A stretch of DNA of 32,037 bases from contig DAOVGS010000018.1 of assembly GCA_030672285.1 (NCBI GenBank), positions 1-32,037 of the forward strand, written 5' to 3'. This stretch comes from Hadesarchaea archaeon. Lineage in GTDB: Archaea; Hadarchaeota; Hadarchaeia; Hadarchaeales; Hadarchaeaceae. Position numbers and translations under genes: made by a program. Shown piece by piece: positions 5,138 through 24,994 of this stretch; the stretch's first letter is position 1, and the number at the start of each line of letters is the position of its first letter. Under the pieces are notes generated by a model, which saw only the letters and a list, made by a program, of their open reading frames with translations, did no database searches and was not told the DNA's origin.

Positions 5138-5163
5138 CAACTACCTATGAGCGGAGGAGGTAG
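5138..5163. repeat. Direct repeat copy 2 with hairpin potential (right of AbrB/PIN module)
   Basis: CAACTACCTATGAGCGGAGGAGGTAG; ACTACCT...AGGTAGT arms. Confidence 0.65.
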
Positions 5164-5772: not shown

Positions 5773-5829
5773 TTGTTTAACCTTTATTTAACTTTTTAGG
5801 GTGGATTTTCGGTGCCCGGTTTAAACACT

Positions 5830-5870
5830 CCCGCCGAGGCTTTGCGCGGGGGTTGTTTATAAAGAGGAAA
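5830..5870 (-). promoter_or_regulatory. Dispersed promoter/hairpin cassette, copy c
   Basis: Sense: TTTTCCTCTTTATAAACAACCCCCGCGCAAAGCCTCGGCGGGA. Confidence 0.75.
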
Positions 5871-6083
5871 ACGTGGGGCTTGATTTAACCGACATTATCA
5901 AAAATGATAAGTTGGGTTGATTGAATCAGTTAACCCCTAAGCACCCGCCATGTTCGCACCGCTTCAGCTCGCGCCGGCCGCCCCTCGACAAAAATCTCCA
6001 TCGCCCGGTGCCGCGAAGTCCACTGAATCAGCCTGGGCTTCGAGATCCGCCTGCCCACGCACCTTATCTTCTCCGCCTCTATC

Positions 6084-6482
6084 CTATCGCTCCGGTTCAA
6101 CCCAACCCTCCCCCCACAGTTCCAGCAGGAGCTCGTTGACGAGGTCGAAGTCTATCCTCAGGGCATCGCTTATCTCATCCGCACGCACGCGCTCCCTGCC
6201 CTTCAGGTACCGCTGGATCTCCTTCTTCGCCCGCCCCTTGGGCACGTCGCGGTAGGTGACGACTTCCAGGCCCCGAAGGTGCTCGGCGTAGTGTTTTATT
6301 GCCCCCCTTATCGCCTCCGCTTTCGAAACCCTGAGCCTTTCCGTAATCGCGTTCAAATCCTTCTGGCTCCCCGTGAGGTCAACCGGATAGACTAGCCTCT
6401 CGGTTTTCACGGGCATCTCCTCATTGTATAGGTTGTATAAATTTGTATAAATATCTGCTGGTGTGGCCTCGGATTTCTTCAA
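6084..6482 (-). CDS. Small RHH/winged-helix-like DNA-binding protein
   Basis: TTG start at 6482 directly after a cassette (alternative ATG at 6416); DLTGSQKDLNAITERLRVSKAEAIRGAIKHYAEHL plus C-terminal wHTH-like segment. Confidence 0.65.
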   Translation of the reverse strand: MKKSEATPADIYTNLYNLYNEEMPVKTERLVYPVDLTGSQKDLNAITERLRVSKAEAIRGAIKHYAEHLRGLEVVTYRDVPKGRAKKEIQRYLKGRERVRADEISDALRIDFDLVNELLLELWGEGWVEPER

Positions 6483-6487
6483 CGCTT

Positions 6488-6532
6488 CCCGCCGAGGCTT
6501 TGGGCGGGGGTTCTTTATAAGGGGGCAAAAAT
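6488..6532 (-). promoter_or_regulatory. Dispersed promoter/hairpin cassette, copy b
   Basis: Sense: TTTTTGCCCCCTTATAAAGAACCCCCGCCCAAAGCCTCGGCGGGA. Confidence 0.8.
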
Positions 6533-6594
6533 CGTCGGGGCGATGCTCAAGAGCGCTCGAAAGCCTTATTTGCTGTAAAAACAATTCTTAACTG

Positions 6595-6616
6595 CCGTGA
6601 GGGGTGTGTCTTTTCC
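6595..6616 (-). repeat. Partial copy of the 6722-6794 tRNA (D-loop to anticodon loop)
   Basis: GGAAAAGACACACCCCTCACGG vs tRNA GGAGAAGACACACCCCTCACGG (21/22). Confidence 0.8.
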
Positions 6617-6721
6617 GGGTTGGTCCCGGTTTTTAAACCCATTGATTTTTCTTTTTTCTCGTTTATTCTCTGCTTTTGTATCCAAAGTGGAGGCAAGCCC
6701 ACGCCCACGGCAGCGTGGTCG

Positions 6722-6794
6722 TGGCCCCGACGGGATTCGAACCCGCATCTCACCCTCCGTGAGGGGTGTGTCTTCTCCATTAGACTACGGGACC
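6722..6794 (-). tRNA. tRNA or tRNA-like gene, 73 nt; isotype uncertain
   Basis: GGTCCCG/CGGGGCC acceptor, GTCT/AGAC D-stem, CACCC/GGGTG anticodon stem, GCGGG-TTCGAAT-CCCGT T-arm; anticodon loop reads CTCACGGA (8 nt). Confidence 0.8.
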
Positions 6795-6801
6795 GGCTTG
6801 C

Positions 6802-6846
6802 CTCCAGCTAGGCTTTGGGTGGGGGTTGTTTATTAAGGGGAAAATT
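6802..6846 (-). promoter_or_regulatory. Dispersed promoter cassette, copy d (upstream of tRNA at 6722-6794)
   Basis: Sense: AATTTTCCCCTTAATAAACAACCCCCACCCAAAGCCTAGCTGG; hairpin arm degenerate. Confidence 0.7.
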
Positions 6847-6877
6847 GTGTCTCAACAACTTTCGATCCCAAGTGCTA

Positions 6878-7219
6878 CTACACCTTCTTGCTCTCCGCCA
6901 GCAATCTCCTCAGCTTTTCACTGTCAGCGAACACCCAGACTATCCTGCCGTCTTTCGTCACGATTATTTTGTTTGACCTCTGGAGGTACTCGAGGACCAA
7001 ATTAAAGGTCTGGTACATCACCTTCTTCGGCAGATGCCTGAGCAGCTCGGCCTTCGTCGGGTATTCCTTGGCGCTCCTGATGGCGTCCTCGATCATCATG
7101 ACCGTGTCCAGCCGAGGGTAGTGTATTATTTGCCGTCTTTTTCGCGTACTTCCCACCATGAATTGTTGGTTATATAAGTTTATATAATTAGCTGGATTCG
7201 TATCAAACGTTTTGTTCAT
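6878..7219 (-). CDS. Small winged-helix-like protein
   Basis: ATG at 7219 directly after a cassette; SAKEYPTKAELLRHLPKKVMYQTFNLVLEYLQRSNKIIVTKDGRIVWVF. Confidence 0.65.
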   Translation of the reverse strand: MNKTFDTNPANYINLYNQQFMVGSTRKRRQIIHYPRLDTVMMIEDAIRSAKEYPTKAELLRHLPKKVMYQTFNLVLEYLQRSNKIIVTKDGRIVWVFADSEKLRRLLAESKKV

Positions 7220-7223
7220 CTTT

Positions 7224-7265
7224 CCCGCCGAGGCTTTGGGCGGGGGTTCTTTATAATGGGAAAAA
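7224..7265 (-). promoter_or_regulatory. Dispersed promoter/hairpin cassette, copy a
   Basis: Sense: TTTTTTCCCATTATAAAGAACCCCCGCCCAAAGCCTCGGCGGGA, then ATG. Confidence 0.8.
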
Positions 7266-7374
7266 ATCCTGAAAAGTTGGAGGAATAGACAAAATTTTCC
7301 TAAATTTTCCTAAACTTTTAAACTTTAATTAGTCGGTTCTACTTTTTTGTTTGTGTAACAGGAGCATAATCGTG

Positions 7375-8127
7375 ATGAGCAACATAGCAACTGGAACAAA
7401 AGCGATAAGAAAACAGTTGATTGGCTTCCGCCCCGTCGGCATAGCCTTCGCCCTGTTCCTCCTCCTGAACCTCGCCCTCTACCTCCTAATCACCCTGCAC
7501 CCCCCGCTGCTGGAGGACCTCTGGCTCTCGGCCGACCGCCCCTGGGGCATCCTGACCTCGATGTTCGTCCACCAGGAGCTCGATCACCTCGCCGGCAACC
7601 TGCTCTTCTTCACGATCTGGAGCGCCCTCTTCGTGACCGTGAACTTGCTCAGCGGCGCGGAAGCGAGGAGATGGTGGAGCAGGTTTTTCCTCGGGGCGGT
7701 CTTCCTCGCGGGCATCACGGCGAACGCCATCGAGTTTGGGGCGTGGGGGATGGCCGGCGTGCCGGATAATTCGTGGGGCGCATCGGGGGTGGTCTATGCC
7801 GCTATGGGGGTTCTGCTGGCGTGCGCCCTTTACAACCTCCCCTCCAACCTGACTGCCCTTCGTGCGGCGGTTGCCACGCGGAGGCGTAAACCCAGGAAGA
7901 TCCGGCGAAGACTGAAGCTCGTCCTAAAATTTGAGAAAACATTCATCGTGTCCATGGTCACCATAGGAGTCGTGGTTGTTTTCCTGTCCCAGCTGGTTCT
8001 GGACCCGGGGACCTTCTTCAGCGCTGGACCGGGGGTCGACGTGCTGGCCCACGAGCTTGGGTTCCTCCTCGGCTTCCTGCCGGCGATGCTCCTGTTCTAC
8101 ACCCACGTTTCCAAGAAAGGAAAGTGA
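7375..8127 (+). CDS. Rhomboid family intramembrane serine protease
   Basis: Multi-TM; HLAGNLLFF, GASGVVYAAMGV, late-TM AHELGFLLGFLPA; GGAG upstream at 7361. Confidence 0.82.
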   Translation: MSNIATGTKAIRKQLIGFRPVGIAFALFLLLNLALYLLITLHPPLLEDLWLSADRPWGILTSMFVHQELDHLAGNLLFFTIWSALFVTVNLLSGAEARRWWSRFFLGAVFLAGITANAIEFGAWGMAGVPDNSWGASGVVYAAMGVLLACALYNLPSNLTALRAAVATRRRKPRKIRRRLKLVLKFEKTFIVSMVTIGVVVVFLSQLVLDPGTFFSAGPGVDVLAHELGFLLGFLPAMLLFYTHVSKKGK

Positions 8128-8142
8128 ATGCGGGCTATCCCC

Positions 8143-8445
8143 CTAAATCTCTCCCTTCTTGCCCGCCCTTAAACGAGCAATTCTCCTGATCATTTCGTCG
8201 ATGACGTCGAGGCGATATGCTACTTCCCTCGGTAGGATTTTGAGGATGTACGCCTCATCCTCCTCCTGCCAGTAGAAAATCCGCCACTTGCCTATCCTCA
8301 ACCTGAAAAGCCCGTCTCTTATCTTTCGAATGTCTCCTTTGCCAGTTTTCTCGAATTCCCTGAGTTTACTTCGAATCAGTGCCCAGTCCTTTGAGGGTAG
8401 TTTCTTTAGATCATCTAAGACCTTTCTTTCGACGTTCAACTTCAC
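8143..8445 (-). CDS. RelE/ParE-type toxin
   Basis: VLDDLKKLPSKDWALIRSKLREFE...IRDGLFRLRIGKWRIFYWQEEDEAYILKILPR. Confidence 0.85.
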   Translation of the reverse strand: MKLNVERKVLDDLKKLPSKDWALIRSKLREFEKTGKGDIRKIRDGLFRLRIGKWRIFYWQEEDEAYILKILPREVAYRLDVIDEMIRRIARLRAGKKGEI

Positions 8446-8635
8446 GAATCGCTTCCTCCAACGGTATGAACTCGCCTTCCTTGAGGGTCTTTAAAAGATC
8501 GTCTATGAACGCCTCACGTATTTCGATGAGTTCGTGAATGATCTGGTCGTAAGTCTTCCCCTTCTCCCCAACACTCTTGAGCAAATCTCGTGTGCTCTCT
8601 TGGACTTGGATAGTCGTGACCATTTCTCCTCCCAT
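8411..8635 (-). CDS. RelB/VapB-like antitoxin
   Basis: TTIQVQESTRDLLKSVGEKGKTYDQIIHELI; overlaps the toxin start. Confidence 0.75.
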   Translation of the reverse strand: MGGEMVTTIQVQESTRDLLKSVGEKGKTYDQIIHELIEIREAFIDDLLKTLKEGEFIPLEEAIREVERRKKGLR

Positions 8636-8641
8636 TCAGTA

Positions 8642-8656
8642 CTATAGCGGCTATAG
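8642..8656. promoter_or_regulatory. CTATAG-CGG-CTATAG repeat, candidate operator of the RelBE-like pair
   Basis: Two palindromic CTATAG half-sites just upstream of the antitoxin start. Confidence 0.4.
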
Positions 8657-8785
8657 CTTTATATAGTTGTTGATGAGAAGGCGAGAATCCGCAAGACGGG
8701 AGCCTCGTGCATCAAGGGGCGAGATCATACGGAAATTGGTGGCGGTTTTTTAACCACCGACGCACACCCAAGCTTGGTTGAGAGC

Positions 8786-10060
8786 ATGGCGCTCGAGGAG
8801 AAGACTATTCACGACCCGGTGCACGGCAGCATGCGCCTGAGCGGCCTCGTCCTCGAGCTCGTCGACACCCCCGAGGTCCAGCGCCTTCGAAGCATCCGGC
8901 AGCTCGGCCTCGCCAACCTCGCGTTCCCTGGCGCAAATCATTCCCGCTTCGAGCATGCCCTCGGCGTCGCATACCTCCTGAAGCGGATGAGCGAGGAGCT
9001 CAAGCTGCGCGGGCGTGAGCTGAACCTCCTCCTCGCCGCCGCAACCCTCCACGATGTCGGCCACGCCCCCTACTCCCACACTCTCGAGTACCTGACGAAG
9101 GAGTACGTGGGGAAGGACCACATGCAGGTGACCGGGGATATCCTGCGGGGGAAGCTCAGCATTTGCCCGCCGGGGGAAGTCAAACACCTTCGGGAGCTGC
9201 GGGTGCCGAGCGTGGTCGAGGTGCTCGAGCGCCACGGCATAAACCCGGGGGAGGTCGCGCGGTTGTTGCTGGGGAAGCACCGCAAGCCTTACCTCGGGCA
9301 GCTCATCTACGGCGATGTCGATGTCGACCAGATGGATTTCCTGCTCCGCGACGCCCACTTCACGGGCGTGGCCCTCGGGATGGTGGATATCGACCGCCTG
9401 ATGGACACCCTCTGCGTGCATCGCGGGCGCCTGGCGATCCTGAGCAAGGGAATCGAGGCGGTCGAGGGGCTGCTGACCGCGCGCGCCCTGATGTACACCT
9501 CGGTCTACTTTCACCACACCACGCGCGCGGCCGAGATGATGCTGATGAACGCGGTTGAGTTTGCGATCGAGCGGGACGAGGCGGTCACCAAGGACAATTT
9601 TTACCTGATGACGGACGCCGAGCTGATGGGGCACCTTTGCTCGATGGATGGATACCCTAAAGATATCGCGCTTCGCCTCCGTTACCGCCAGCTCTTCAAG
9701 CCCGCATACGTCGAGGAGCGCCGCGAGCTAACGAGCGCTGAGAAGCGGGGATACCTCAGGCGCTACGGCCGATGGCGCCGCACCCGCGAGCTGCAGGATG
9801 AAATCGCGGATGAGGCGGGCGTACCCCACGGTCAGGTCATCCTCGACATCCCGATCGTCGACATAATAATTTCAGAACCCCGCCTGGCGAAGGTCGAGAT
9901 TCCCGTGCTCGCGGAGGGGAAGCTTGAGAAATTATCTAAGCTCTCACCCATAGCGGCTGCCGTCGAGAAGCGGCAGGCCCCCCGATACCTGCTGCGGGTC
10001 ATCACCGAGTCCAGGCACGTGGACCGGGTGAGGCTGGCGACGAAAAAAGTTTTGAGTTAA
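8786..10060 (+). CDS. HD-domain phosphohydrolase (SAMHD1/dGTPase-like)
   Basis: IHDPVHGSMRLSGLVLELVDTPEVQRLRSIRQLG, HSRFEHALGV, LHDVGHAPYSHTLE. Confidence 0.92.
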   Translation: MALEEKTIHDPVHGSMRLSGLVLELVDTPEVQRLRSIRQLGLANLAFPGANHSRFEHALGVAYLLKRMSEELKLRGRELNLLLAAATLHDVGHAPYSHTLEYLTKEYVGKDHMQVTGDILRGKLSICPPGEVKHLRELRVPSVVEVLERHGINPGEVARLLLGKHRKPYLGQLIYGDVDVDQMDFLLRDAHFTGVALGMVDIDRLMDTLCVHRGRLAILSKGIEAVEGLLTARALMYTSVYFHHTTRAAEMMLMNAVEFAIERDEAVTKDNFYLMTDAELMGHLCSMDGYPKDIALRLRYRQLFKPAYVEERRELTSAEKRGYLRRYGRWRRTRELQDEIADEAGVPHGQVILDIPIVDIIISEPRLAKVEIPVLAEGKLEKLSKLSPIAAAVEKRQAPRYLLRVITESRHVDRVRLATKKVLS

Positions 10061-10080
10061 AATCATCTGGAAATGAGATA

Positions 10081-10569
10081 ATGACCGGAGTTGTAGCATA
10101 CTACACCAGGACTGGAAAGACGAGATTTGTTGCACAACGGTTGGCCAAGGCACTGGGTTGCAGAGCGCTCGAGATATCAGATCTGAAAAAGCGAATGGGG
10201 TTAATAGCATACCTAAAGGCCGCGAGAGATGCCAGGGGCAAAAAGAGGACAGAGATAGAGCCAAAGACGATCGATACCACAGGATGCGACCTAATCTGCC
10301 TCGGAACCCCGGTCTGGTGGTCTAACCCCACCCCAGCGATGATGACCCTGCTAGACAACCTTGATGTAAAGGGGAAAGATGTGGTGATATTTGGCACGGC
10401 AGACAGGTCTCCTGAACGAACCATTGACATCCTCAGGAAAAGGGTGGAGGAGAAGGGGGGTACTATCGTGGAATCCTTCTTTTGCCTGAAGGGGAGCGAT
10501 GAAGAGAGAATGAAGGTTGTGGAAGATTTCGTAGACCGCTTCAGAAAGCAGTCCCGATTGCACTTTTAA
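10081..10569 (+). CDS. Flavodoxin-like protein
   Basis: VVAYYTRTGKTRFVAQRLAKAL...DLICLGTPVWWSNPTPAMMTLLDNLDVKGKDVVIFGT. Confidence 0.85.
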   Translation: MTGVVAYYTRTGKTRFVAQRLAKALGCRALEISDLKKRMGLIAYLKAARDARGKKRTEIEPKTIDTTGCDLICLGTPVWWSNPTPAMMTLLDNLDVKGKDVVIFGTADRSPERTIDILRKRVEEKGGTIVESFFCLKGSDEERMKVVEDFVDRFRKQSRLHF

Positions 10570-10674
10570 CATTAAAGAAAGTTACCTTGACAGTTTTGTG
10601 ATGAGGAGAATAATTGAAATATCGGGGACAGGTATTACCTAAATTTTCCAGGTAAAGTGGGTTGATGAAAAATT

Positions 10675-11265
10675 TTAAACTAGGGCTTCCCGCCCCTGGT
10701 CAGTCAGCCTCATGCGGGCGTCCAGATAACCCAGGGTCTGCAGCCTCCTGACCTGCCCCCGCGCAACCATCACGGGTACGCCCACGTCGCTGGCGGCCCG
10801 CTCTAGGGGAATCCCGGTGTCAAGGTTTCGGAGGATGCCCCTACCGACCTCACCCACAAGCAACTCGTCGGCGAGCCTCCGCTTGGTCGCGGAGTTCATC
10901 TCCGGCCGCGCGGCGAGGATGCGCTTGAGGAGCTCGGGCCCCGGGGCGGCGCCGTACTTCTGGGTGAGCACCCGCTGGCAGGAACTCGACCCGGCTATCG
11001 CACACCGGAGGCCCTCGAGATCCCTCACCAACCCGAGCAGATCTCCAAAACGCTTCACCCGCCTTTCCGCCCCTATACCCAAACTGCCGCGGAGCGCCTC
11101 GTTTGCGTCCAGCAATCGCTTCACTTCCTTGCGCAGGAAATTGACCTCCCCCGAGAGTTTGCGCCTTCGAGCGATGCCGCCGCCGGAAAAGAGGATTATC
11201 CCTAGGAGCAGGAGGATGATGACCACGAGCAACGCTTCAACCCACACCCCCACCACCGCTCCCAT
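10675..11265 (-). CDS. Membrane-anchored protein with cytoplasmic HTH-like domains
   Basis: N-terminal TM, coiled region, C-terminal GVPVMVARGQVRRLQTLGYLDARMRLTDQGREAL. Confidence 0.6.
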   Translation of the reverse strand: MGAVVGVWVEALLVVIILLLLGIILFSGGGIARRRKLSGEVNFLRKEVKRLLDANEALRGSLGIGAERRVKRFGDLLGLVRDLEGLRCAIAGSSSCQRVLTQKYGAAPGPELLKRILAARPEMNSATKRRLADELLVGEVGRGILRNLDTGIPLERAASDVGVPVMVARGQVRRLQTLGYLDARMRLTDQGREALV

Positions 11266-11358
11266 TTACGCGCTAGGGATTAAAAACAGCTGGGTCGGCA
11301 ACGCACGTCATCGCCTAAACCCTTATTTTCAGGGCACCAGAGGTTACGCGGTGCTCAC

Positions 11359-12606
11359 GTGTTCGTCGAGGGACTCAAGTGCCTGAGGTGCGGACGAAAG
11401 CACGCGCCGACGAAGGGTTTGTACACCTGTGAGAAGTGCGGGGGCAAATTGGAAATCCTTTACGATTACGACGCGATCGCCGACGTGGTGGGGAAAAGGG
11501 AATTCGCTAAGCGGCGCGCGGGCGTTTGGAAATATTTCGAGCTCTTGCCCGTGGCCAGCAGGAAGAACATCGTGACGCTGGGCGAGGGGGGCATGCCGCT
11601 CCTGGAGGCGAAAAACCTGGCCCGCAAGCTAGGGCTCAGGCGGCTCCTCCTCAAGGATGAGACCAAGAACCCGACGGCATCATTCAAGGATCGACCGATG
11701 AGCGTCGGTTTATCCAAAGCGGTCGAGTTCGGGGCACGAAAGGTCGTGACGGCGTCGAGCGGGAACGCTGCGATCGCGCTCGCGGCCTACGCGGCGAAGG
11801 CGGGGGTCGAGTGTTACGCTTTCGTCCCAGCGGGGGCAGCGGCGAGCAAGCTGGCTCAGCTCTCGATGTACGGGGCCCACGTGGTCAAGGTTACCCGCAG
11901 GGGGGTGGGTGACCCGACCTACGAGCTCATGCGCGCGGCGTGGAGGAAATTCGGGTGGCATCCCATCCCCAGCTGCGGCGCCTTCAACCCCTACCAGCCC
12001 GAGGGCTCCAAGACGATGTCGTACGAGGTGTGCGAACAGCTGGGCTGGCGGGTGCCGGATTGGGTCGTCGTTCCGGTCGGGGCGGGGACCTTGCTTTCGG
12101 GGAACGCCAAGGGCTACTTCGAGTTCGAGCAACTTGGCTTGGTCAAAGGGGTGCCTCGCCTCGCAGCGATTCAGGCCGAGGGTTGCGCCCCTCTCGTCAA
12201 AGCGTTCAGGGAGGACACACCGCCCTATGAAATTCCGACTTGGCCGAACCCGAACACCGTGGCGTCGGGGCTTGTGGATCCCTACCCTTGGGACGCCGAT
12301 ACCGCGATCCCCGCGATCAAACGTTCGAGGGGTGCCGCGCAGGCGGTGAGCGACGCGGAGATCCTGGAGGCGGAGAAGCTCTTGGCTAGAAGTGAGGGGG
12401 TCTTCGCCGAACCTTCGGGCGCGGCAGGGCTGGCAGGGCTCCGCAAATTACTCGAGGCCGGAGTCATCGATCGTTCGGATGTCGTCGTGGTCGAGGTGAC
12501 GGGGGGCGGGCTCAAGGATGTGCGGACGGCGATGAAGTTAGCCGAGGAGCCGACAGTGATCGAGCCGGAGCTCGGGCAGTTCAAGCGGTTGTTGAAGAAG
12601 GGGTAG
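11359..12606 (+). CDS. thrC: Threonine synthase
   Basis: N-terminal zinc-ribbon-like CLRCGRKH..CEKCGG, LLLKDETKNPTASFKDRPM, TASSGNAAIALAAYAAKAG, FAEPSGAAGLAG. Confidence 0.93.
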   Translation: MFVEGLKCLRCGRKHAPTKGLYTCEKCGGKLEILYDYDAIADVVGKREFAKRRAGVWKYFELLPVASRKNIVTLGEGGMPLLEAKNLARKLGLRRLLLKDETKNPTASFKDRPMSVGLSKAVEFGARKVVTASSGNAAIALAAYAAKAGVECYAFVPAGAAASKLAQLSMYGAHVVKVTRRGVGDPTYELMRAAWRKFGWHPIPSCGAFNPYQPEGSKTMSYEVCEQLGWRVPDWVVVPVGAGTLLSGNAKGYFEFEQLGLVKGVPRLAAIQAEGCAPLVKAFREDTPPYEIPTWPNPNTVASGLVDPYPWDADTAIPAIKRSRGAAQAVSDAEILEAEKLLARSEGVFAEPSGAAGLAGLRKLLEAGVIDRSDVVVVEVTGGGLKDVRTAMKLAEEPTVIEPELGQFKRLLKKG

Positions 12607-12673
12607 CGACAAATTCACAACATTTAAATTGGGCTTGAAAAAAGAGTAAAAACTGTCTGAAAGGGTTAAGGAG

Positions 12674-13111
12674 GTGAAATGGATGGAAAAGAAAACGTTG
12701 ACGTATATCGGGCTTATCGGTGGTATAATTGCAATAGTCGGAGTTTTCTTGGACTGGATAACCGTAACGGTGACCGCTGGAGGCTTTTCAGTATCGGCCG
12801 GAGCATCAGGGTGGACGTGCACAGCAGCGGTGGTTTCACCCTATCTTGCTTTGCTCGGCGGCATCCTCGCGCTGCTAGGTGGTATCGGGCTGCTGTCTGG
12901 TAAGAGGGGCCTCGGCTTCTTGCTTCCCATAGGCGGGATACTTGCTATCGTTGGCGCAGGTTGGTTCTACGCTGACCTCAATGCTGCGATAGGAGCAGCG
13001 GGGGCTGCAGCTGGAGTGGGCGTATCGGTAGGCGCTGGTATCGGCCTCTATGCATCCATCGTCGGCGGCGTAATAGCCCTGATTGGAGCGGCCGGCCTGA
13101 GAGGGAAGTAA
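12674..13111 (+). CDS. Gly/Ala-rich multi-TM membrane protein
   Basis: 145 aa, several hydrophobic helices. Confidence 0.6.
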   Translation: MKWMEKKTLTYIGLIGGIIAIVGVFLDWITVTVTAGGFSVSAGASGWTCTAAVVSPYLALLGGILALLGGIGLLSGKRGLGFLLPIGGILAIVGAGWFYADLNAAIGAAGAAAGVGVSVGAGIGLYASIVGGVIALIGAAGLRGK

Positions 13112-13165
13112 CCCCGCGGACACGTACCAAGCGAAGGCTTTTTTAATTTTTTCACAAGAAGTAGC

Positions 13166-14218
13166 CTACGGCATGAACATTGCCATTACTGCCTTCTGCA
13201 CGTGCAGTCGATTCTCGGCCTCATCGAAGTAAAGCGAGCGCTCGTACTTGTCTAGTACTTCATCGGTAACTTCCTGTCCTCGATCCGCAGGTCCGCAGTG
13301 CATGTAGTGGGCCTTATTTGTGATGTCTAGCAGTTCTGGGGTTGTGATCCAGTCCTTGAACTTGCCTTGGTAGGCTGAGGCCCCCTCCTTGTCGACCGTC
13401 TTGCTGTGGGGCGGGACGAACTGCTTTGGCGACCAAGCCTTCGGGTAGACGAAATCAGCGCCCTCGAATGCCTTCTTCATGTCGTTGACGATCTCGAAAC
13501 TTCCCCCGTAACGTTTGGCGTTATCCTTCGCGGCCTTGATCGCGCTATCCTCGAGCTCGAATCCCTTGGGGTGAGCGAGCACGACATCCATCCCGAACTG
13601 GGTCGTTATCAGGACCTCACTCTGGGGCACTGCTAGGGGCTTGAGGCCGCCCGAGTACGCATAGGATACAACGAATTTCTTTCCTTGGAGCTTTGGTTCA
13701 GTTTCTCTTGCAGCTTGGATATCCGCCAACGCTTGGAATGGGTGATAGAGGTCGTCTTCCATGTTGAGCACGGGGATTTCGCCCCACTTTGCGAACTCCT
13801 CGATGACCCGATGTCCCCGCCCGATGGTCCACTTCGCGGGGTCACCGTAGATTCGGATGGCGATAGCGTTGCCGTAGCGGCTCAGCACCCTTGCGACATC
13901 GGAGATCGATTCGGTTGCATAGGGTACCATGTCTTCTGGAAGGGTCGGGGTGTAAAGGTCTTGGGGGCTGAGGAAGTGGGCGTGTCCCCCAAGTTGGTAC
14001 ATCCCTGCCTCAAAGGAATTCCGCGTCCGGAGGGAGCGGTTGTAAAATATCATGAAAAGGGTTCTTCCAGGCAAGTACGGTGTGGGTTCCCGGCTCCTAA
14101 ACTTCCGCTTCAAGTCGTCTGCTGCGTCCAAGATTTGTTTGATTTTTTCTTGAGTGAAATCTTGGGTGTTGAGGAAATCCTTCCCCTTGAACGCGCCGAC
14201 GTACTTTGGGATTTTCAT
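13166..14218 (-). CDS. Aspartate/ornithine carbamoyltransferase-superfamily protein (N-acetylornithine/YgeW-like)
   Basis: SLRTRNSFE, YHPFQALADIQAA, HCGPADRGQEV in place of HCLP. Confidence 0.85.
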   Translation of the reverse strand: MKIPKYVGAFKGKDFLNTQDFTQEKIKQILDAADDLKRKFRSREPTPYLPGRTLFMIFYNRSLRTRNSFEAGMYQLGGHAHFLSPQDLYTPTLPEDMVPYATESISDVARVLSRYGNAIAIRIYGDPAKWTIGRGHRVIEEFAKWGEIPVLNMEDDLYHPFQALADIQAARETEPKLQGKKFVVSYAYSGGLKPLAVPQSEVLITTQFGMDVVLAHPKGFELEDSAIKAAKDNAKRYGGSFEIVNDMKKAFEGADFVYPKAWSPKQFVPPHSKTVDKEGASAYQGKFKDWITTPELLDITNKAHYMHCGPADRGQEVTDEVLDKYERSLYFDEAENRLHVQKAVMAMFMP

Positions 14219-14294
14219 GTGGGGTACCTCCTTTATGTAACAAATCGATTTGTCTTAAGAAAGGTTTAAATGTATAAGTCGCCTATGTGCAACC

Positions 14295-15023: not shown

Positions 15024-15048
15024 GTTATTTTACTTTCGAATCAAAAAC

Positions 15049-16941: not shown

Positions 16942-16945
16942 GTTC

Positions 16946-17881
16946 TCACTTCACCGTTCCTCTCTCGGGGTTGCCTGCCAAAAACTTTTCGACCTCTTTC
17001 AATGTCGGCATGGATTGGGCACCTATCTTCATCACAGAGAGGGCCGCGGATGCCGCTGCAAAATCCGCAGCCTCCCTCGGGGCCATCCCCTTGTAAATGC
17101 AGCTGATGAAAGCCGAGTTGAAGCAATCACCCGCGCCAGTCGTGTCCACCACGTTTTCGACTTTATAAATTGGTATTTGGTGCTCCCCCTCGGACGTTAC
17201 GAGCATGGATCCCTCTTCACCCATTGTTATGAGGACAAGCTCAGGGCCAAAGCTTAAGAGTTTTTTTGCCGCCTTCTTAACATCGGTTTCTTTGGTAAGT
17301 TCAAGGGCCCCTCTGCGGTTGGGTAGGAGGATATCCGTCATCCCAAGCAAATCCTTGATCGCATCCAAGCCGTAAACGGCGACATGCCTTTCCAGGTCGA
17401 ACGAAACTTTCTTACCAGCTTCCTTTGCGATTTTCATGCATTTTCTGGCTGGATCAATTTTCACGGCATCCGTGTGGAAAATATCCGCTTTTGCGACATA
17501 ATCTGATATAATTTCACCTGCATCGAGGACATTTTTTTCCATGTATATATCTTGAAGTATTTGGCGACTTCCGTGAGAATCCACGACTATGATGTTGACC
17601 GGAGTTTTTGTCTCTTTTTTCAGAAAGAAATGGTCCATGTCCATGTCGTGATTTTTAAAATTTTGTACTATCTCATGACCGTTGGAATCGTCGCCAGCTG
17701 AACCCATGAAACCGGACTTGACACCGTTGCGTGCAACCCCAACGCAGAAATTCGCGACGACCCCCCCACATTGCCTCGCGAAATTTTTTATCCAAATCTT
17801 GTCGTCGGGTTTGCAGAACTCCTCGACTATTACAAACTCATCTATCGAGGATACGCCCAAGCCTATTATCTTTGCAACCAT
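16946..17881 (-). CDS. PfkB-family carbohydrate kinase
   Basis: QCGGVVANFCVGVARNGV..., DTTGAGDCFNSAFI. Confidence 0.92.
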   Translation of the reverse strand: MVAKIIGLGVSSIDEFVIVEEFCKPDDKIWIKNFARQCGGVVANFCVGVARNGVKSGFMGSAGDDSNGHEIVQNFKNHDMDMDHFFLKKETKTPVNIIVVDSHGSRQILQDIYMEKNVLDAGEIISDYVAKADIFHTDAVKIDPARKCMKIAKEAGKKVSFDLERHVAVYGLDAIKDLLGMTDILLPNRRGALELTKETDVKKAAKKLLSFGPELVLITMGEEGSMLVTSEGEHQIPIYKVENVVDTTGAGDCFNSAFISCIYKGMAPREAADFAAASAALSVMKIGAQSMPTLKEVEKFLAGNPERGTVK

Positions 17882-18003
17882 AACTCCAACCTCGTGTGAT
17901 TTTTGCCATTTCATCTAAATTTGCCCAACTTTAAGTTTTTCGCCCGAAGCTTGGAGAGCTAGAGCTTAAAGACGTGGCCGACGATTGGAAGCTGGGTCAG
18001 CGG

Positions 18004-18678
18004 ATGGAGATCATCTACGAGGGCAAGACCAATCGTTTGATTCGCCTAGGCGATCGAACTTTGCTGCAGTTCAAAGACGCATTGGTCGGCGACGCGAAGG
18101 GTAACGTCGACCCGGGCGGTGATTTCGTCGTCGGGCAGCTGGAGGGCAAGGGCGCGGCGTCCGCAAAGGTCGCTGCTTATTTTTTTAAACTCATGAACGA
18201 AGCCGGTATCGATACCCACTTCTTGGGGGTGCACTCGGATACCGAGCTGGAGATTCGCCCAATCACAAGGATTCAGCTAGAGGTGATCTACAGGGCGCTG
18301 GCGTATGGGAGTTTTCTTCGGAGATATCGCGGCTATGTGCAGCCGATGGCGGAACTCGACTTGGTTGAATTTAATCTCAAAGACGATGCTCTGGGAGACC
18401 CCCTGCTCGAGCGCCGCGTCGTCACCAAACTCGGAATCGCCAGCCCTGATGAGGTCGGGCGCATGGAAGTGATAGCTCGTCGGGTCGTGAGGGCGGTAAC
18501 GGGGGTGCTTACCGACCAAGGGTTAAAACTCGTCGACATGAAGCTGGAGTTCGGTAGGATTGGTGAAAATCTTGTGGTAATCGATGCGTTGAGCGGGGAC
18601 ACCATGCGGGTTTACGATCCCGAAAAAAGAAAAGTGTTGAACCAGCTTGAACTAGCGGAGGGACTTGGTCTTACTTGA
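18004..18678 (+). CDS. purC: Phosphoribosylaminoimidazole-succinocarboxamide synthase
   Basis: MEIIYEGKTNRLIRL, LVDMKLEFGR, DALSGDTMRVYD; possible upstream GTG at 17974. Confidence 0.9.
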   Translation: MEIIYEGKTNRLIRLGDRTLLQFKDALVGDAKGNVDPGGDFVVGQLEGKGAASAKVAAYFFKLMNEAGIDTHFLGVHSDTELEIRPITRIQLEVIYRALAYGSFLRRYRGYVQPMAELDLVEFNLKDDALGDPLLERRVVTKLGIASPDEVGRMEVIARRVVRAVTGVLTDQGLKLVDMKLEFGRIGENLVVIDALSGDTMRVYDPEKRKVLNQLELAEGLGLT

Positions 18679-19288
18679 CGAGCTTTTCTACCTCTTCCTC
18701 TGAGAGCTCGCGGTAGCCTCGCTCATCGATTAGCGCGATGACCGTCTTGTCCCCAGTCGCGGCATCCCGCTCGATTGCGATCTTGATCGACTGCGCCACC
18801 AGCTTCGCCCCATCGTCGAGCTTCAACCCGTCGCGGTAGTTCTGCTCGAGCACGCCGTAAGCCACCGTGGATCCGGTGCCGGCGCTCGCGAACTTCTCCT
18901 CCTCGAGCTTGCCCCCCACGGGGTCGAGGAAGCAAAGGCGTGGCCCGTCGCTATCGACGCCCGAAATCACACCCGCCACTATGTAGGGAAATACCCGCCG
19001 CCCATGGAGCATGTTTGACGCCACCTGAGCCAAGCTCTTCGTCGAGATCGGGCGCCCGTGACTCAGGCGGTAAAGGTTAGCCTCAGCTCGGAGCATGTTG
19101 ACCAAGCTCTGGACATCGCCCGAGCTGCCCGAAATAGCGGCCCCAATCCGCCCATCGAGCTTGAAGACCTTCCGGACGCGCTTGCTGAGCACCAGATAGT
19201 AAGCCGTACCCCGGGTGTCCGAGGCCAGGGCGATTCCCTCCTTGCATCGAACCCCAACGATCGTTCCCGTGAAGCCGTACATTGTCAT
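18671..19288 (-). CDS. psmB: Proteasome beta subunit with atypical N-terminus
   Basis: GTIVGVRCKEGIALASDTRGT...LSKRVRKVFKLDGRIGAAISGSSGD...AGTGSTVAYGVLE. Confidence 0.92.
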   Translation of the reverse strand: MTMYGFTGTIVGVRCKEGIALASDTRGTAYYLVLSKRVRKVFKLDGRIGAAISGSSGDVQSLVNMLRAEANLYRLSHGRPISTKSLAQVASNMLHGRRVFPYIVAGVISGVDSDGPRLCFLDPVGGKLEEEKFASAGTGSTVAYGVLEQNYRDGLKLDDGAKLVAQSIKIAIERDAATGDKTVIALIDERGYRELSEEEVEKLVK

Positions 19289-19319
19289 CACACGTAGATT
19301 GGCGTGCTGGTTATAAAAA

Positions 19320-20789
19320 TCATCGCCGCCGGAGCAGGACCGCGGCGAGCGCTACAATCGAGCCGACGAGCACGGCAACCAAGGCGTAGAGCAAAAGGTT
19401 GAAAAGTTGCTCGGCGGGCGGGGCCGGGAGAGAGGAGATCGACACCGACGCCTCGCCCTTTGCCAAGAAAGTTCCACTAATAGTATCGTGGGGACTGTCG
19501 TAAGTTACATTGACCGTGAGGGTGTGGGACTCACCGTAAGCCCCTTCCTTGACCCTTGGCCTGAAGGTTACCTCCCCCGTACTCCCTGAGGGGATGTCCC
19601 CGATGTTTTCAATTGGAACTTCATCGAAATAGCTCGAATCCACCACGAGCTGCGCTTTGACATTTGATGCAGGACGCCTACCGATGTTCTTGACTTGTAG
19701 GGTTGCGATCAGTTCTCCGTCTGCGATTTCGCGTGACGGAGTCAAGTTAAGTTGGAGTGCTATCTCCGGGGCAACCGTCCCGGTATGGGAACCGCGGACA
19801 GTTGCAGGAGGAGGTTTAGTCCACCTCCACCCCCACACACCCGAACCTTGCCATTTAATTTCACCATCCTTAACGACATTCTCACCACCCACTGAGGCAC
19901 CGACGATGTGTGAATAATCGATGTACCCAAAGGATCCGACACCGGTGGGCCAAACGAGGTCAAGGGGGACCCATCCAATGCTTGGCAGATAGATCATCAC
20001 CCATTCATGCCCAATTTCATCAACATCGGCGCTGATCTCCGTAGCCCCGTAAAGCGGGGAGTAGGCCAAGCCAATGATGGCCTTAGCTGGCACCCCAACC
20101 GCTCGCGCCAAAGCTATGTATAGATTTGAATAGTCGCTGCAATCTCCTTCTCTTGGAGAAAGGCGAAATGCGTCGAGGGCCCCATGCTCAACCAGCTGGC
20201 GTTTGTAGGAGAAATAGCTTATCACATTTTCAAACAGCAGCCTCGCTTTTCGATAAAGATTGGTTTCATTCTCCACCACTTGGTCCGCGTAGGCGACGAT
20301 TTCAGGCGCATTTTCAAAAAGCCCATCAACCGGCAAAGTGTATTTTACAACCTCGGAAGGGATAGAGGTGCCGACCGACTCCGGATCTATCTCGAACTGA
20401 GGAACTGTTTTGACCCGCAAGGTTTGAACCACGGTTATCGTCTTTGAAGCGCCCACGGGAATGTTGCCAACGTTGACCTCTACCCAACGGTTTTCCTCGC
20501 CCCTAGATGCTGTGAAAGAGGTGGGCGCCCCGTCGACACTTATTTCTTCGCTCAACACCACTTGGTCTGCCCATACGGAGTAATTATCGAAGAGTGAAAT
20601 CGTTGCTCTGACATTGTTTGCTTGGTTGGGGCCATCGTTCGTCAACTCATAATCTATCGTGATGGTATAGATGGCTGCCTCCTCCGCTTGGGCACTTGCA
20701 ACCGGTTGGATTAAGAACAGCACGAAAATGGAGAGCCCGATAACAGCCAGCTTGCGCAACTGCTCACCCTCTAGGCTATTTTTTACCAC
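19320..20789 (-). CDS. Secreted/membrane-anchored transglutaminase-like protein
   Basis: GTG at 20789 preceded by GGAGGT; signal peptide; REGDCSDYSNLYIALARAVGVPA, GHEWV, PLDLVWP triad; C-terminal TM. Confidence 0.85.
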   Translation of the reverse strand: MVKNSLEGEQLRKLAVIGLSIFVLFLIQPVASAQAEEAAIYTITIDYELTNDGPNQANNVRATISLFDNYSVWADQVVLSEEISVDGAPTSFTASRGEENRWVEVNVGNIPVGASKTITVVQTLRVKTVPQFEIDPESVGTSIPSEVVKYTLPVDGLFENAPEIVAYADQVVENETNLYRKARLLFENVISYFSYKRQLVEHGALDAFRLSPREGDCSDYSNLYIALARAVGVPAKAIIGLAYSPLYGATEISADVDEIGHEWVMIYLPSIGWVPLDLVWPTGVGSFGYIDYSHIVGASVGGENVVKDGEIKWQGSGVWGWRWTKPPPATVRGSHTGTVAPEIALQLNLTPSREIADGELIATLQVKNIGRRPASNVKAQLVVDSSYFDEVPIENIGDIPSGSTGEVTFRPRVKEGAYGESHTLTVNVTYDSPHDTISGTFLAKGEASVSISSLPAPPAEQLFNLLLYALVAVLVGSIVALAAVLLRRR

Positions 20790-20841
20790 TTTAAAGAACC
20801 TCCGTATCCCGTTGGGCGGCACACGTATGTCACATCTGCGC

Positions 20842-20886
20842 AAATTTTCCCCCTTATAAAGAACCCCCACGCAAAGCCTCGGCGGG
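20842..20886 (+). promoter_or_regulatory. Dispersed promoter/hairpin cassette, copy e
   Basis: AAATTTTCCCCCTTATAAAGAACCCCCACGCAAAGCCTCGGCGGG, directly before ATG at 20892. Confidence 0.8.
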
Positions 20887-20891
20887 AGAGA

Positions 20892-21560
20892 ATGGATGAG
20901 AAAACCATGACCAAGCTGAGTCTGCTTTGCTCGCTGACGGGGCTGGCGGCTATCTACGCCGCGGCGATGCAGGTCCGCCCGACGATGACTCCCATCGCGA
21001 GCCTGGACAACGAGTTCGTCGGGCTGCAGGTGACAGTTTCCGGGCAGGTCGTCGACTCCTACGAGCACCCCGATGGGCACCTCTTCCTGAAGCTGCGCGA
21101 CAACTCGGGAGGCGTGGTCAGCGTTCCGGTGTTCGCCCGGGTGCGCGCGGAGCTGAGCGAGCCAATAGAGTTTCTGGACATCGTGCAGGTTGCAGGCGAG
21201 GTGACGCTCTACAAGGGCGAGCTCGAGGTGATTCCCAGAGGGGCGGGTGACTTGCGAGTGGTGCACACGGCTCCGGCCAAGCTCTCGAGCCTGAGCCGGG
21301 AGCATGTGGACATTCCGGTGAAGGTGCAGGCCACCATCGTAGAGCGCGAAATCGTGGGGGGTGGAAGCCTGATCCTGACGCTCCAGGAGGATGACAGCCA
21401 GCTGTTGGTCTTCGTCCCCGCATGGGTGGTTGAGGATGGCTTGCCCGAGCTCCACGTCGGCAACGTGGTGTGCGTCGACGGGTGGCTCCAGCTTTACAAC
21501 GACGAGCTCGAGCTGAAGCTCGGGGCCCCATCGCACCTGCGGGTCGTCGAGGCGGCGTAG
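20892..21560 (+). CDS. Membrane-anchored tandem OB-fold nucleic-acid-binding-like protein
   Basis: N-terminal hydrophobic helix; two repeats of V-x-GQVVDSYEHPDGHLFLKLRDNSGGVVSVPVF / V-QATIVEREIVGGGSLILTLQEDDSQLLVFVP. Confidence 0.65.
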   Translation: MDEKTMTKLSLLCSLTGLAAIYAAAMQVRPTMTPIASLDNEFVGLQVTVSGQVVDSYEHPDGHLFLKLRDNSGGVVSVPVFARVRAELSEPIEFLDIVQVAGEVTLYKGELEVIPRGAGDLRVVHTAPAKLSSLSREHVDIPVKVQATIVEREIVGGGSLILTLQEDDSQLLVFVPAWVVEDGLPELHVGNVVCVDGWLQLYNDELELKLGAPSHLRVVEAA

Positions 21561-22802
21561 ATGCTGGAGGTGCTCGCCTACACGCTGCTGGGCGTGGGGC
21601 TGGGCACCTTCACGGGCTTGATCCCTGGCGTCCACGTGAACAACCTCGCGCCCTTATTGGTCGGAGTAGCAGCGGTCTCAGGCCTGCCACCGATGAACAT
21701 CGTGGCCGCTATCGTGGCGATGATGATGGCCCACACTATCATCAGCTACATCCCAGCGACCTTCTTGGGGGCGCCCGAGCCCGGGACTGAGCTCTCGGTG
21801 CTGCCCGCCCACCGCCTGCTGCTCGAGGGGCGGGGATACGAGGTCATCCGCCTGACCGCGTTCGGCTGTCTCGGGGCCCTGATGCTGAGCGCCGCGCTCG
21901 CCCTGCCCCTTTCGCTCATATTCGCCCCCGCCTACGCGTTCGTCCAGCCCCAGATGCACTGGCTACTACTCTCGGTGATCGTAATCATGATCGCGCTCGA
22001 GCGCTCGCGTTCGGGCATCCTGTGGGCGATGACAATTTTTCTGCTCTCGGGTCTGCTGGGTCTGTTCACGTTGGACACCAACCTCGTGAGGGGAGACGTG
22101 GCCCTGTTACCCTTGCTCAGCGGGCTCTTCGGGGTGAGCGTTCTCCTGCTTAGCGCCGTCCGCAAGAGCAGCCTTCCCAAACAGAAAGTTGATAACCCGG
22201 AGCCGCTCGAGTTTCGTGAAAACGCGAGAGCTTTGTGCGCGGGAACCGGGGCTGGCGTCCTGACGGGCATCATCCCGGGCATAGGCCCATCGCAGGGGAC
22301 GGTGCTCGCCCAGCTGGTGACCCGCTCGAGCGGCACGCGTGAGTTCTTGGTGGGGGTGAGCGGGGTGAACACGGCGAAGGCGCTATTCTCATTTGTCGCG
22401 CTTTACGCCATCGCCAGACCCAGGAGCGGTGCAGCCGTCGCCGTCGACCAACTCGTGGATAAAGTTGGTTTGAATGAACTCATCTTTTTGATAGGAGTCG
22501 CGCTCGTCGCGGGGGGGATTGCGACGGTGCTTCACTTGAGGCTCGGCAGGCTCGCGGCCCGCCACATCGGGGGGCTGCCTTACCGGACGATGTGCCTGAC
22601 GGTGATCTCGGGCATGGCGGTGATGACGTTTTGTTACGCGGGTTTGATGGGCCTGCTCATTTTAGCAACTGCGACTGCGATCGGGATACTTCCCGCGGTG
22701 GCCAAGGTCAAGCGTACCCACTGCATGGGGGTGATAATGTTGCCTTGCATCCTCTATTTTGCGGGGGCGAAGGATGGAGTGCTCGCGGCGCTCGGCTTAT
22801 AA
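21561..22802 (+). CDS. TctA/DUF112-family multi-TM permease
   Basis: GVGLGTFTGLIPGVHVNNLAPLL and repeated GAGVLTGIIPGIGPSQGTVLAQL; start abuts the upstream stop. Confidence 0.85.
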   Translation: MLEVLAYTLLGVGLGTFTGLIPGVHVNNLAPLLVGVAAVSGLPPMNIVAAIVAMMMAHTIISYIPATFLGAPEPGTELSVLPAHRLLLEGRGYEVIRLTAFGCLGALMLSAALALPLSLIFAPAYAFVQPQMHWLLLSVIVIMIALERSRSGILWAMTIFLLSGLLGLFTLDTNLVRGDVALLPLLSGLFGVSVLLLSAVRKSSLPKQKVDNPEPLEFRENARALCAGTGAGVLTGIIPGIGPSQGTVLAQLVTRSSGTREFLVGVSGVNTAKALFSFVALYAIARPRSGAAVAVDQLVDKVGLNELIFLIGVALVAGGIATVLHLRLGRLAARHIGGLPYRTMCLTVISGMAVMTFCYAGLMGLLILATATAIGILPAVAKVKRTHCMGVIMLPCILYFAGAKDGVLAALGL

Positions 22803-23162
22803 GCCCCGCTCCCTGATCGCCTTCCACAGCTTGAACCCGGCGTAGAGGGCGAGCACGAGCCCCGGGATTGCGAGCGAAAGCTTGAGCTCGATCGAGACCA
22901 GCCCCGCTCGGACCAGACCGAAGCCCAGCAAGACGAGCCCCACCACGAGCAGGACCGGCATGAATGTCATCTCGGGAGGCGCCCGGAGCCAGTGCCAGAA
23001 ATAATCGCCGATCAGCCGGAAATAGCTGAGTATGAGCACGACCCCCAGCCCCATGAAGGCCGCATCGACCAAGCTTTTGGGGGCTGGGTAGACCCCCTCA
23101 ATTAAAAGGTACACTCCGATCACGAGGGCGATGAATGCGAGGTAAGGTCTATTGGCGTTCAT
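22797..23162 (-). CDS. Small multi-TM membrane protein
   Basis: ATG at 23162 preceded by GGAAGAGAAG; four hydrophobic stretches. Confidence 0.6.
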   Translation of the reverse strand: MNANRPYLAFIALVIGVYLLIEGVYPAPKSLVDAAFMGLGVVLILSYFRLIGDYFWHWLRAPPEMTFMPVLLVVGLVLLGFGLVRAGLVSIELKLSLAIPGLVLALYAGFKLWKAIRERGL

Positions 23163-23217
23163 CTTCTCTTCCAAAAATCATTTGAGTTTATCTGATTAAA
23201 GGACATAGCTTTTCCTG

Positions 23218-23895
23218 ATGGGAATGCGGGTCGCGGCCCTTTGCTCGGGTGGGAAGGATTCGGCGTATGCGCTCTGGCTGGCGATGGAGCAGGGGCACGA
23301 GGTTGCGCAGGTAGTGGCGATGATCCCGCGCCGAGAGGACTCCTGGATGTTTCACTTCCCAAACATTCACCTCATCGACCTCTTCGCCGAATGTGTGGGC
23401 CTGCTCCTCATCAAGGCCGAGACGAGCGGCGAGCGCGAGGCGGAACTTGAGGACCTGAAACGAGTGCTTCAAACGCTTGACATCGAGGGCGTGGTAAGCG
23501 GCGCAATAGCCTCGAACTATCAAAAGAGCCGCATCGACCGCATCTGCGGGGAGCTCGGTTTAAAGTCGATAGCACCCCTCTGGGGGAGGGAGCCCCTCGA
23601 GCTTTTGCGGGAGTTCATCGCGGCGGGTTTTGAGGCAATCGTGACGAGCGTCTCCGCTGAAGGCTTTGATGAGAACTGGCTGGGGAGGGAGCTCGACGAG
23701 GCAGCGGTACGCGATTTGCTCGAACTCAATCGTAGGTACAAGGTCAATTTGAGCGGAGAGGGCGGCGAGTACGAGAGCCTCATCCTGGATGCGCCATTTT
23801 TCGGGAAGCGCATCGAGCCCGTCGAGGTGGAACGTGTCTGGCGGGGGACTAACGGATATTTAATCATCAAGCAAGCAAAGCTCGTGGAGAAGTGA
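23218..23895 (+). CDS. dph6: Diphthine--ammonia ligase-like PP-loop ATPase (Dph6)
   Basis: MRVAALCSGGKDSAYALWLAMEQGHEV...EGVVSGAIASNYQKSRIDRICGELGLKSIAPLWGR. Confidence 0.92.
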   Translation: MGMRVAALCSGGKDSAYALWLAMEQGHEVAQVVAMIPRREDSWMFHFPNIHLIDLFAECVGLLLIKAETSGEREAELEDLKRVLQTLDIEGVVSGAIASNYQKSRIDRICGELGLKSIAPLWGREPLELLREFIAAGFEAIVTSVSAEGFDENWLGRELDEAAVRDLLELNRRYKVNLSGEGGEYESLILDAPFFGKRIEPVEVERVWRGTNGYLIIKQAKLVEK

Positions 23896-23898
23896 ACC

Positions 23899-24927
23899 AT
23901 GTCGACCGCCATCGTTTACTCGGAGAAATACCTCGAGCACAAACCGGGCATGGGGCACCCCGAGCGGCCCGAGCGCCTGAAGGCGATAGTGGAAGCGCTG
24001 AGGGGGGCAAAGCTCTGGGGAACGCCGAGCGTAAAGGTGATCGAGCCCAAGCCAGCTAAACGTGGGGATATCGAGCTCGTTCATGCCACCGAGCACATCG
24101 AACTCGTCGAACGCCTGAGCAAATCCGAACGCCCCCTCGATGGCGACACCCCCGTGCGCAAGAACACCTTCGAGCTCGCGCTGCTCGCCGCGGGAGGGAC
24201 GATCGATGCCGGGCGCGCGGTACTCTCGGGTGAGGCCTCGAACGCATTCGCCTTGGTTCGTCCTCCGGGTCACCACGCGTCCCGAGCGCGGGGCGGGGGG
24301 TTCTGCTACTTCAACAACCTCGCGGTGATGATCGAGCGCATGAAGCGGGAGTTCGGGCTGAGACGAATATTCGTCCTGGACTTCGACGCCCACCACGGCA
24401 ACGGTACCGAGGACATCTTCTACGAGGACCCGAGCGTGCTTTACATGTCGTTGCATCAGGACCCGCTCACGCTTTACCCCGGGACCGGCTTCGTCCACGA
24501 GCTGGGCTCGGGGGAGGGCGAGGGATATACCGTCAACGTGCCCATGCCCCCTGGGAGCGGCGATGCCGAGTACGCGGGCGCCATGGGTGAAATTTTCGTG
24601 CCGCTGAGCGAGCAGTTCAAGCCCGACCTTTTCGCGGTTTCCGCCGGGTTCGACGCGTACGCCGATGACCCACTCACACAGCTGCGGCTATCAACACCCG
24701 CCTATGGGTGGCTCACACGTTTCGTCGTCGAGCAAGCTGAGAGGCTGTGCAAGGGGCGGGTGGTTTTTGTGCTCGAAGGTGGTTATGTGCTCGACGCTTT
24801 GGCGGAGGGAGTGGTAAATGTAGTGAAAACCCTGACCGGCGAGAAACCTCCAACGCCCGTCGAACCTCGCCGCCCCAGCGTTATCGATGAGCTCAAGCGG
24901 GGGCTCGCGAGCTATTGGAAACTGTGA
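23899..24927 (+). CDS. Histone deacetylase/acetoin utilisation-family protein
   Basis: GMGHPERPERL, RPPGHHASR, DFDAHHGNGTEDIFYEDPSVLYMSLHQ, VSAGFDAYADDPL, EGGYVLDAL. Confidence 0.95.
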   Translation: MSTAIVYSEKYLEHKPGMGHPERPERLKAIVEALRGAKLWGTPSVKVIEPKPAKRGDIELVHATEHIELVERLSKSERPLDGDTPVRKNTFELALLAAGGTIDAGRAVLSGEASNAFALVRPPGHHASRARGGGFCYFNNLAVMIERMKREFGLRRIFVLDFDAHHGNGTEDIFYEDPSVLYMSLHQDPLTLYPGTGFVHELGSGEGEGYTVNVPMPPGSGDAEYAGAMGEIFVPLSEQFKPDLFAVSAGFDAYADDPLTQLRLSTPAYGWLTRFVVEQAERLCKGRVVFVLEGGYVLDALAEGVVNVVKTLTGEKPPTPVEPRRPSVIDELKRGLASYWKL

Positions 24928-24949
24928 GTTCACACGTGTGCATTGCTGA

Positions 24950-24994
24950 AATTTTCCCCTTTATAAACAACCCCCGCCCAAAGCCCCGGCGGGA
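24950..24994 (+). promoter_or_regulatory. Dispersed promoter/hairpin cassette, copy f (upstream of tRNA at 25077-25166)
   Basis: AATTTTCCCCTTTATAAACAACCCCCGCCCAAAGCCCCGGCGGGA. Confidence 0.8.

Follow-up and report, generated by a model that had tools for sequence, protein, structure and literature searches.

A 43-bp promoter element of one Hadesarchaea family and the transcription factor B paralogue TFB2 as its likely reader

That archaeal transcription factor B (TFB) paralogues might recognise promoter sequences of their own, much as sigma factors do, has been hard to show because the known targets share only weak motifs. TFB paralogues confer promoter specificity, and multiple combinations of TATA-binding protein (TBP) and TFB occur in haloarchaea (PMC7289017). 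In the Sulfolobales, the paralogue TFB3 is associated with the 6-bp sequence A(N)TTTC, found at positions -44 to -39 of the UV-inducible ups-pilus and tfb3 promoters (PMC5817253). Here we describe a 43-bp element with a TATA box, six copies of which lie in a stretch of 32,037 nucleotides (the window; contig DAOVGS010000018.1 of assembly GCA_030672285.1) from a Hadesarchaea archaeon of the phylum Hadarchaeota, and its probable connection with a second TFB, designated TFB2.

The Hadesarchaea element resembles the Sulfolobales system in combining a TFB paralogue, a T-rich and non-palindromic element close upstream of the TATA box and pilus genes among the targets, and also in the presence of the element in the paralogue's own promoter (PMC5817253). 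However, the 6 bp of Sulfolobus precede an otherwise variable promoter, whereas here 43 contiguous bp are fixed up to the start. Furthermore, TFB3 has no DNA-binding domain, whereas TFB2 retains the Zn ribbon and the TFIIB repeats, and there is no evidence of a DNA-damage link for the Hadesarchaea promoters. Specificity conferred by a TFB paralogue, as in haloarchaea (PMC7289017), is also what we propose here, but none of the papers retrieved describes a promoter of comparable length and rigidity, and literature searches for Hadesarchaea promoters and tRNA-like RNAs likewise gave nothing relevant. The standard archaeal promoter consists of the B recognition element (BRE), usually A-rich (PMC7289017), the TATA box and the initiator. 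The element has in common with it the TATA box, some 24 nt ahead of the inferred start, and departs from it in the pyrimidine tract that takes the place of the BRE and in the fixed sequence from TATA box to start. Since paralogue specificity is already established in archaea (PMC7289017), the Hadesarchaea class is an unusually strong variant of a known phenomenon.

Among the matches to the aldehyde-ferredoxin oxidoreductase-like protein of the window's genome, the closest named archaeal records belong to 'Hadesarchaea archaeon' MAGs (class Hadarchaeia) and are 75-85% identical. To locate all copies in the genome, we scanned every contig of the metagenome-assembled genome (MAG; 957,912 bp, 69 contigs, 82% complete), of which the window is contig C41, with a scoring matrix that was seeded from the six window copies and iterated to convergence; the reversed matrix served as control. 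The scan revealed 20 copies scoring 39-70 bits, the six window copies reaching 54-70 bits. The next position scored 14.5, and the reversed matrix gave no match of 15 or more. The strands given for the six copies in the initial annotation were right, and its coordinates were off by only 1-3 bases. Relatives, all of them incomplete MAGs, were searched with a sequence-only covariance model built from 46 copies (R1) and with mismatch patterns. The compiled set of 127 copies has the consensus TTTTYYYYYTTATAAAnAACCYCCrCsCAAAGsCThGGCGGGA, with 43 contiguous informative columns and uninformative flanks; the TATA, CAAA and GG positions are nearly invariant.

The position of the copies relative to genes is equally constrained. 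A start codon follows exactly 3 nt downstream in 69 of the 127 copies, compared with 4.6% by chance; copies within the family share kinship and are not independent, so that p-values are inflated. Orthologous gene clusters retain their copy over up to 10 genomes and across genera. These clusters comprise a 107-aa protein (13 copies), an 84-aa membrane protein (11), an operon encoding an OB-fold protein and a TctA-family protein (8), a pilin-like operon (8), a 250-aa protein (7), which is PIN-like by reading only and has no Pfam match, and small helix-turn-helix (HTH) proteins (7). Toxin-antitoxin, LAGLIDADG, SNase and methyltransferase-like genes are further targets.

R1 and the mismatch patterns found the element throughout one GTDB-like family. 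At E<=0.01, all 22 genomes of the family gave a match, mostly with 7-28 copies per genome; copies are few in genera g6, g8 and g9 and number two in g3. At E<=1e-5, R1 matched 19 of the 22 family genomes and none of 79 other archaeal genomes. Two public contigs (JAUWYN010000038.1 and JAGMBM010000056.1) also carry the element in front of the OB-fold gene. Conservation of the OB-fold/TctA promoter spans the genera of the family. A TTTTCCCCC-TTATAAA-AARCC-like sequence is still recognisable at the OB-fold operon in three genomes from a different family, whose protein is 39-44% identical. When degenerate patterns were run against other archaeal families, the single match to stand out was the promoter of the OB-fold operon in g12 (family f3), and with a looser pattern the remaining matches were at control level. 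The copies are directed at genes, orthologues keep them, and a diverged OB-fold/TctA version exists elsewhere. From sequence, these observations argue with near certainty for a dedicated archaeal core-promoter class restricted to one Hadesarchaea family, and not for a mobile repeat.

The initial annotation had offered both a promoter shared by a regulon and a mobile promoter-bearing repeat. The former is backed by the fixed orientation, the 3-nt spacing, the conservation at orthologous genes and a predicted transcription start site (TSS) about 24 nt past the TATA centre. A promoter-bearing repeat mobilised by transposition or by the capture of gene cassettes would suit the mobile character of several targets (toxin-antitoxin, homing endonuclease, methyltransferase and HTH genes), the short tRNA fragments duplicated near two copies and the clustering in the window, where 6 of the 20 genome copies fall within 3.3% of the genome (P=4e-5). 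It is nevertheless very improbable. Copies have neither conserved flanks nor terminal repeats, and with their location tied to gene starts they do not fit a miniature inverted-repeat transposable element, which is marked by terminal inverted repeats, target duplications and random location. Their distance to start codons is fixed, single-copy orthologues keep the element at stable positions across genera, and its divergence tracks the host lineage.

The GC palindrome CCCGCC/GGCGGG, proposed in the initial annotation as a possible operator, did not withstand comparison of 46 copies. Its right arm hardly varies, but the left arm is mostly YCCRCS, and where copies show an inverted repeat they do so by chance. 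Covariation between the arms was absent, with pairing and covariation score no higher than in shuffled sequences. The operator reading fails for want of a conserved left arm and of covariation. The same data bear on a 5' leader hairpin formed by these arms and acting post-transcriptionally, for which the best copies do allow an inverted repeat to be drawn. At 81% of cells, pairing does not exceed that of shuffles, compensatory stem changes are lacking, and the inferred TSS lies downstream of most of the segment. We therefore rejected a covarying operator and regard an RNA hairpin as scarcely credible.

An independent indication of the TSS came from tRNA-containing RNAs behind some copies. In the window, an RNA at 6688-6806 (- strand) lies directly behind one copy and has an outer stem (TGGAGGCAAGCC/GGCTTGCCTCCA) that encloses a tRNA-like domain and a 3' hairpin. 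Nested tRNA(-like) domains with an outer stem and a 3' hairpin also occur at L250, L273, L261, L197, L366, L350 and L362; some have 8-nt or odd anticodon loops. The outer stems vary in sequence (GGGGGACAGCAGGC/GCCTGCTGTCCCCC in L273, TGGGGTAGCAGGTT/AGCCTACTACTCCA in L366), and their 5' strands mostly start at columns 36-38 of the element, about 24 nt past the TATA centre, which suggests that transcription starts at or near GGCGGG. Copies without tRNA gave lower stem values on average (mean 9.0, sd 1.7), a few reaching 14-16.5. For L261, L350 and L362, a simple stem search chose other pairings, and the outer stem was taken from the minimum-energy fold or by eye. With the start placed from these stems, and given its orientation and the start codons at +3, the element agrees with the geometry of an archaeal promoter, in which the TATA box lies about 24-27 bp before the start and is directed at a gene. 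The nested RNAs, found directly behind the promoter class in several species, look like an undescribed RNA class.

Some protein genes behind copies have partial tRNAs in their leaders, at L169, L209 and L217 (leader of the PIN-like gene) and at L248; the fragments include a tRNA-Thr without its 5' part and a tRNA-Asp-like 5' half. Near both tRNA genes of the window, a short part of the neighbouring tRNA, from its D-arm/anticodon region, recurs as a direct repeat at 6586-6616 (versus 6748-6778) and 25015-25037 (versus 25090-25112); L250 has such a repeat as well. These repeats are possibly insertion remnants or att-like sites.

The proposed regulon link to tRNA genes stood in part: two of the 20 copies precede such genes, and tRNA-containing RNAs lie behind copies in relatives too, but they are a minority of the targets. 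As a general tRNA promoter the element was dismissed, since about 38 of some 40 tRNA genes have no copy and most of them have ordinary TATA boxes without a pyrimidine tract.

What might read such a promoter? At ordinary TATA-box genes of the genome, the BRE region is A-rich with 31-49% pyrimidine, whereas the element class is nearly all pyrimidine and has TTTTYYYYY in place of the canonical A/purine-rich sequence next to the TATA box. Alongside a canonical TFB on contig C40, the genome encodes a second one, TFB2 (C36:2527-3423, 298 aa). TFB2 is recognisable as a TFB by its Zn ribbon (PF08271, 4.6e-12), its TFIIB repeats (PF00382, 4.2e-20) and matches to TFIIB/TFB structures in the PDB, and with its near full length it is not a truncated paralogue of the TFB3 type. 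Homology to the solved TFB stops at the BRE-reading helix, where a MAFFT alignment showed the canonical TEVTVRNR replaced by a VGVSSLSK-like sequence conserved in the TFB2s of two families. Most family genomes have a TFB2 orthologue, as do three genomes of f3; the order/phylum genomes G022, G025 and G027 have neither TFB2 nor the promoter. In a scan with the 127-copy matrix, with the TFB2-operon locus left out of the training, C36:1258-1300 was the only position scoring at least 6 beyond the 20 copies. This diverged form, 21st of 21, stands upstream of the TFB2 operon, 3 nt from the ATG of its first gene, which encodes a geranylgeranyl-reductase-like flavoprotein. Orthologous TFB2-operon promoters scored 33 in G011, 20.5 in G017, and 15 and 12 in other genomes. 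As this promoter is the sole extra match in the genome, TFB2 appears to belong to its own regulon.

As a separate observation, the canonical TFB reading frames at L281 and L282 and in G016, G017, G019 and G021-G023 span about 650-860 aa, and more than 1 kb separates their Zn ribbon from the core, a layout that suggests inteins.

TFB2 is a likely reader of the promoter class, and a core-promoter class with TFB2 as its most likely reader and an autoregulated regulon is the explanation we favour, at somewhat better than an even chance. From 5' to 3', TTTTYYYYY occupies the BRE position and TTATAAA forms the TATA box, followed by the fixed GC-rich AACCYCCrCsCAAAGsCTh. TFB2 and TBP would bind TTTTYYYYY/TTATAAA, and the first G of GGCGGGA, or a base close to it, would be the transcription start; mRNAs would then begin approximately with GGCGGGANNN-AUG. 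About 7-28 genes per genome would be driven in this way in one Hadesarchaea family, a regulon of pili, an exported OB-fold protein, toxin-antitoxin and regulator genes and tRNA-containing nested RNAs. The diverged copy at the TFB2 operon would provide autoregulation, and some copies may carry gene-specific operators outside the core. Regulons of bacterial alternative sigma factors are comparable in having an initiation factor of their own, a long and specific promoter and autoregulation; the likeness would be one of analogy, as TFB and sigma are not homologous. Slightly short of an even chance, in our estimate, is the fuller picture of TFB2 as a sigma-like alternative TFB with a rigid 43-bp promoter from BRE to start, autoregulation of the flavoprotein-TFB2 operon, and a family-specific regulon that includes nested tRNA RNAs with an outer stem made from the last bases of the promoter.

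Several observations weigh against TFB2 as the reader. G019, 90% complete, has diverged copies, and TFB2 was not found in it; conversely, G015, G016 and G020 have TFB2 and only strongly diverged copies. In family f3, TFB2 is present and the only promoters recognised are that of the OB-fold operon and a look-alike at the TFB2 operon. The presence or absence of TFB2 was statistically too noisy a predictor of copy number within the family because the MAGs are incomplete, and TFB2 could be a regulon member without being the reader of the promoter class. Moreover, we know of no TFB that reads 20 bp between TATA box and TSS, and a further DNA-binding protein may therefore be needed: either the reader/linker of TFB2 contributes to the fixed 20 bp beyond known TFB contacts, or a second protein binds there. 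A tentative alternative, to which we give a distinct but minor share of the probability, is that the ordinary TFB is used, that a separate regulator binds the segment from TATA box to start, in the simplest case a repressor that prevents the promoter from opening, and that TFB2 is one member of the regulon among others. It agrees with the strongest conservation, including CAAAG and GGCGGG, falling in a region that general factors are not known to read in such detail, and with the many regulator and toxin-antitoxin targets. A downstream repressor would, however, leave the strict TTTTYYYYY in the BRE position unexplained. Half-elements are not in excess either: in the own genome, the BRE and TATA half alone gave 25 matches outside full copies versus 51 in the reversed control, and the downstream half gave a single weak solitary match, the halves otherwise occurring together. 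No candidate regulator was identified, and genes that have regulators of their own carry further palindromes outside the core. Such palindromes, found with some HTH-gene copies (TGTCAACAGGGGTGTTGACA; GTACCGGGGAGTAC), are consistent with gene-specific regulators layered over the common core.

In the window, the annotated 'nearly leaderless' arrangement applies to two copies and fails at another. The copy at 7223-7265 (- strand; predicted TSS near 7229) is followed after 3 nt by the ATG of a 113-aa protein (6878-7219, -), a possible winged helix with weak Pfam matches only, whose orthologue in L258 also has the element. At 20845-20887 (+; TSS near 20881), the ATG of the OB-fold/TctA operon lies 4 nt downstream; the operon encodes a membrane-anchored OB-fold protein (20892-21560, +) and a TctA-family membrane protein (21561-22802, +). 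The copy at 5829-5871 (-; TSS near 5835), in contrast, has its ATG at +56. It precedes a toxin-antitoxin pair composed of an 83-aa DUF4258-like toxin candidate without Pfam match (5521-5772, -) and a MazE/AbrB antitoxin-like protein with a YgiT-type zinc finger (5141-5524, -), and relatives L260 and L265 have the element upstream of the same gene. For the copy at 6487-6529 (-; TSS near 6493), upstream of a small ribbon-helix-helix (RHH)/winged-helix-like gene, the assignment is uncertain: the 110-aa RHH-like protein (6084-6416, -) starts at an ATG at about +70 or, in a longer form, at a TTG 4 nt past the copy.

The remaining two copies had been described as aimed at both tRNA-like genes. This is correct for the copy at 6802-6844 (-; TSS near 6808), which directly abuts the tRNA(-like) domain at 6721-6794 (-; 8-nt anticodon loop); its right end is changed to AGCTGGAG, and its final bases are part of the outer stem of the nested RNA. 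It is less clear for the copy at 24952-24994 (+; TSS near 24988), upstream of a tRNA-Thr and a CCA-adding enzyme, since the intron-containing tRNA-Thr(CGT) (25077-25166, +) begins 82 nt past the copy and seems to own a separate TATA-like box.

Just past the copies at 6487 and 7223, at 6430-6460 (-) and 7160-7200 (-), we noticed TTATAnAA-type repeats (TTTATACAAATTTATACAACC; TTATATAAACTTATATAACC), possibly operators of the small regulators. The surroundings (4405-8635) form a dense island of toxin-antitoxin type with a MazE/PIN pair, the YgiT-AbrB pair and a ParE-like toxin with its antitoxin. Next to it, 2685-4283 (-) encodes a DNA topoisomerase IB of the eukaryotic type, with all three Pfam domains present; this enzyme is uncommon in archaea.

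The promoter class is clear and computable, is tied to one TFB paralogue and has a clean phylogenetic boundary within an uncultured phylum. Its definition opens the question of paralogue-specific recognition to direct in-vitro testing that needs no more than one template and a few proteins, and assigns regulon membership to many genes of unknown function.
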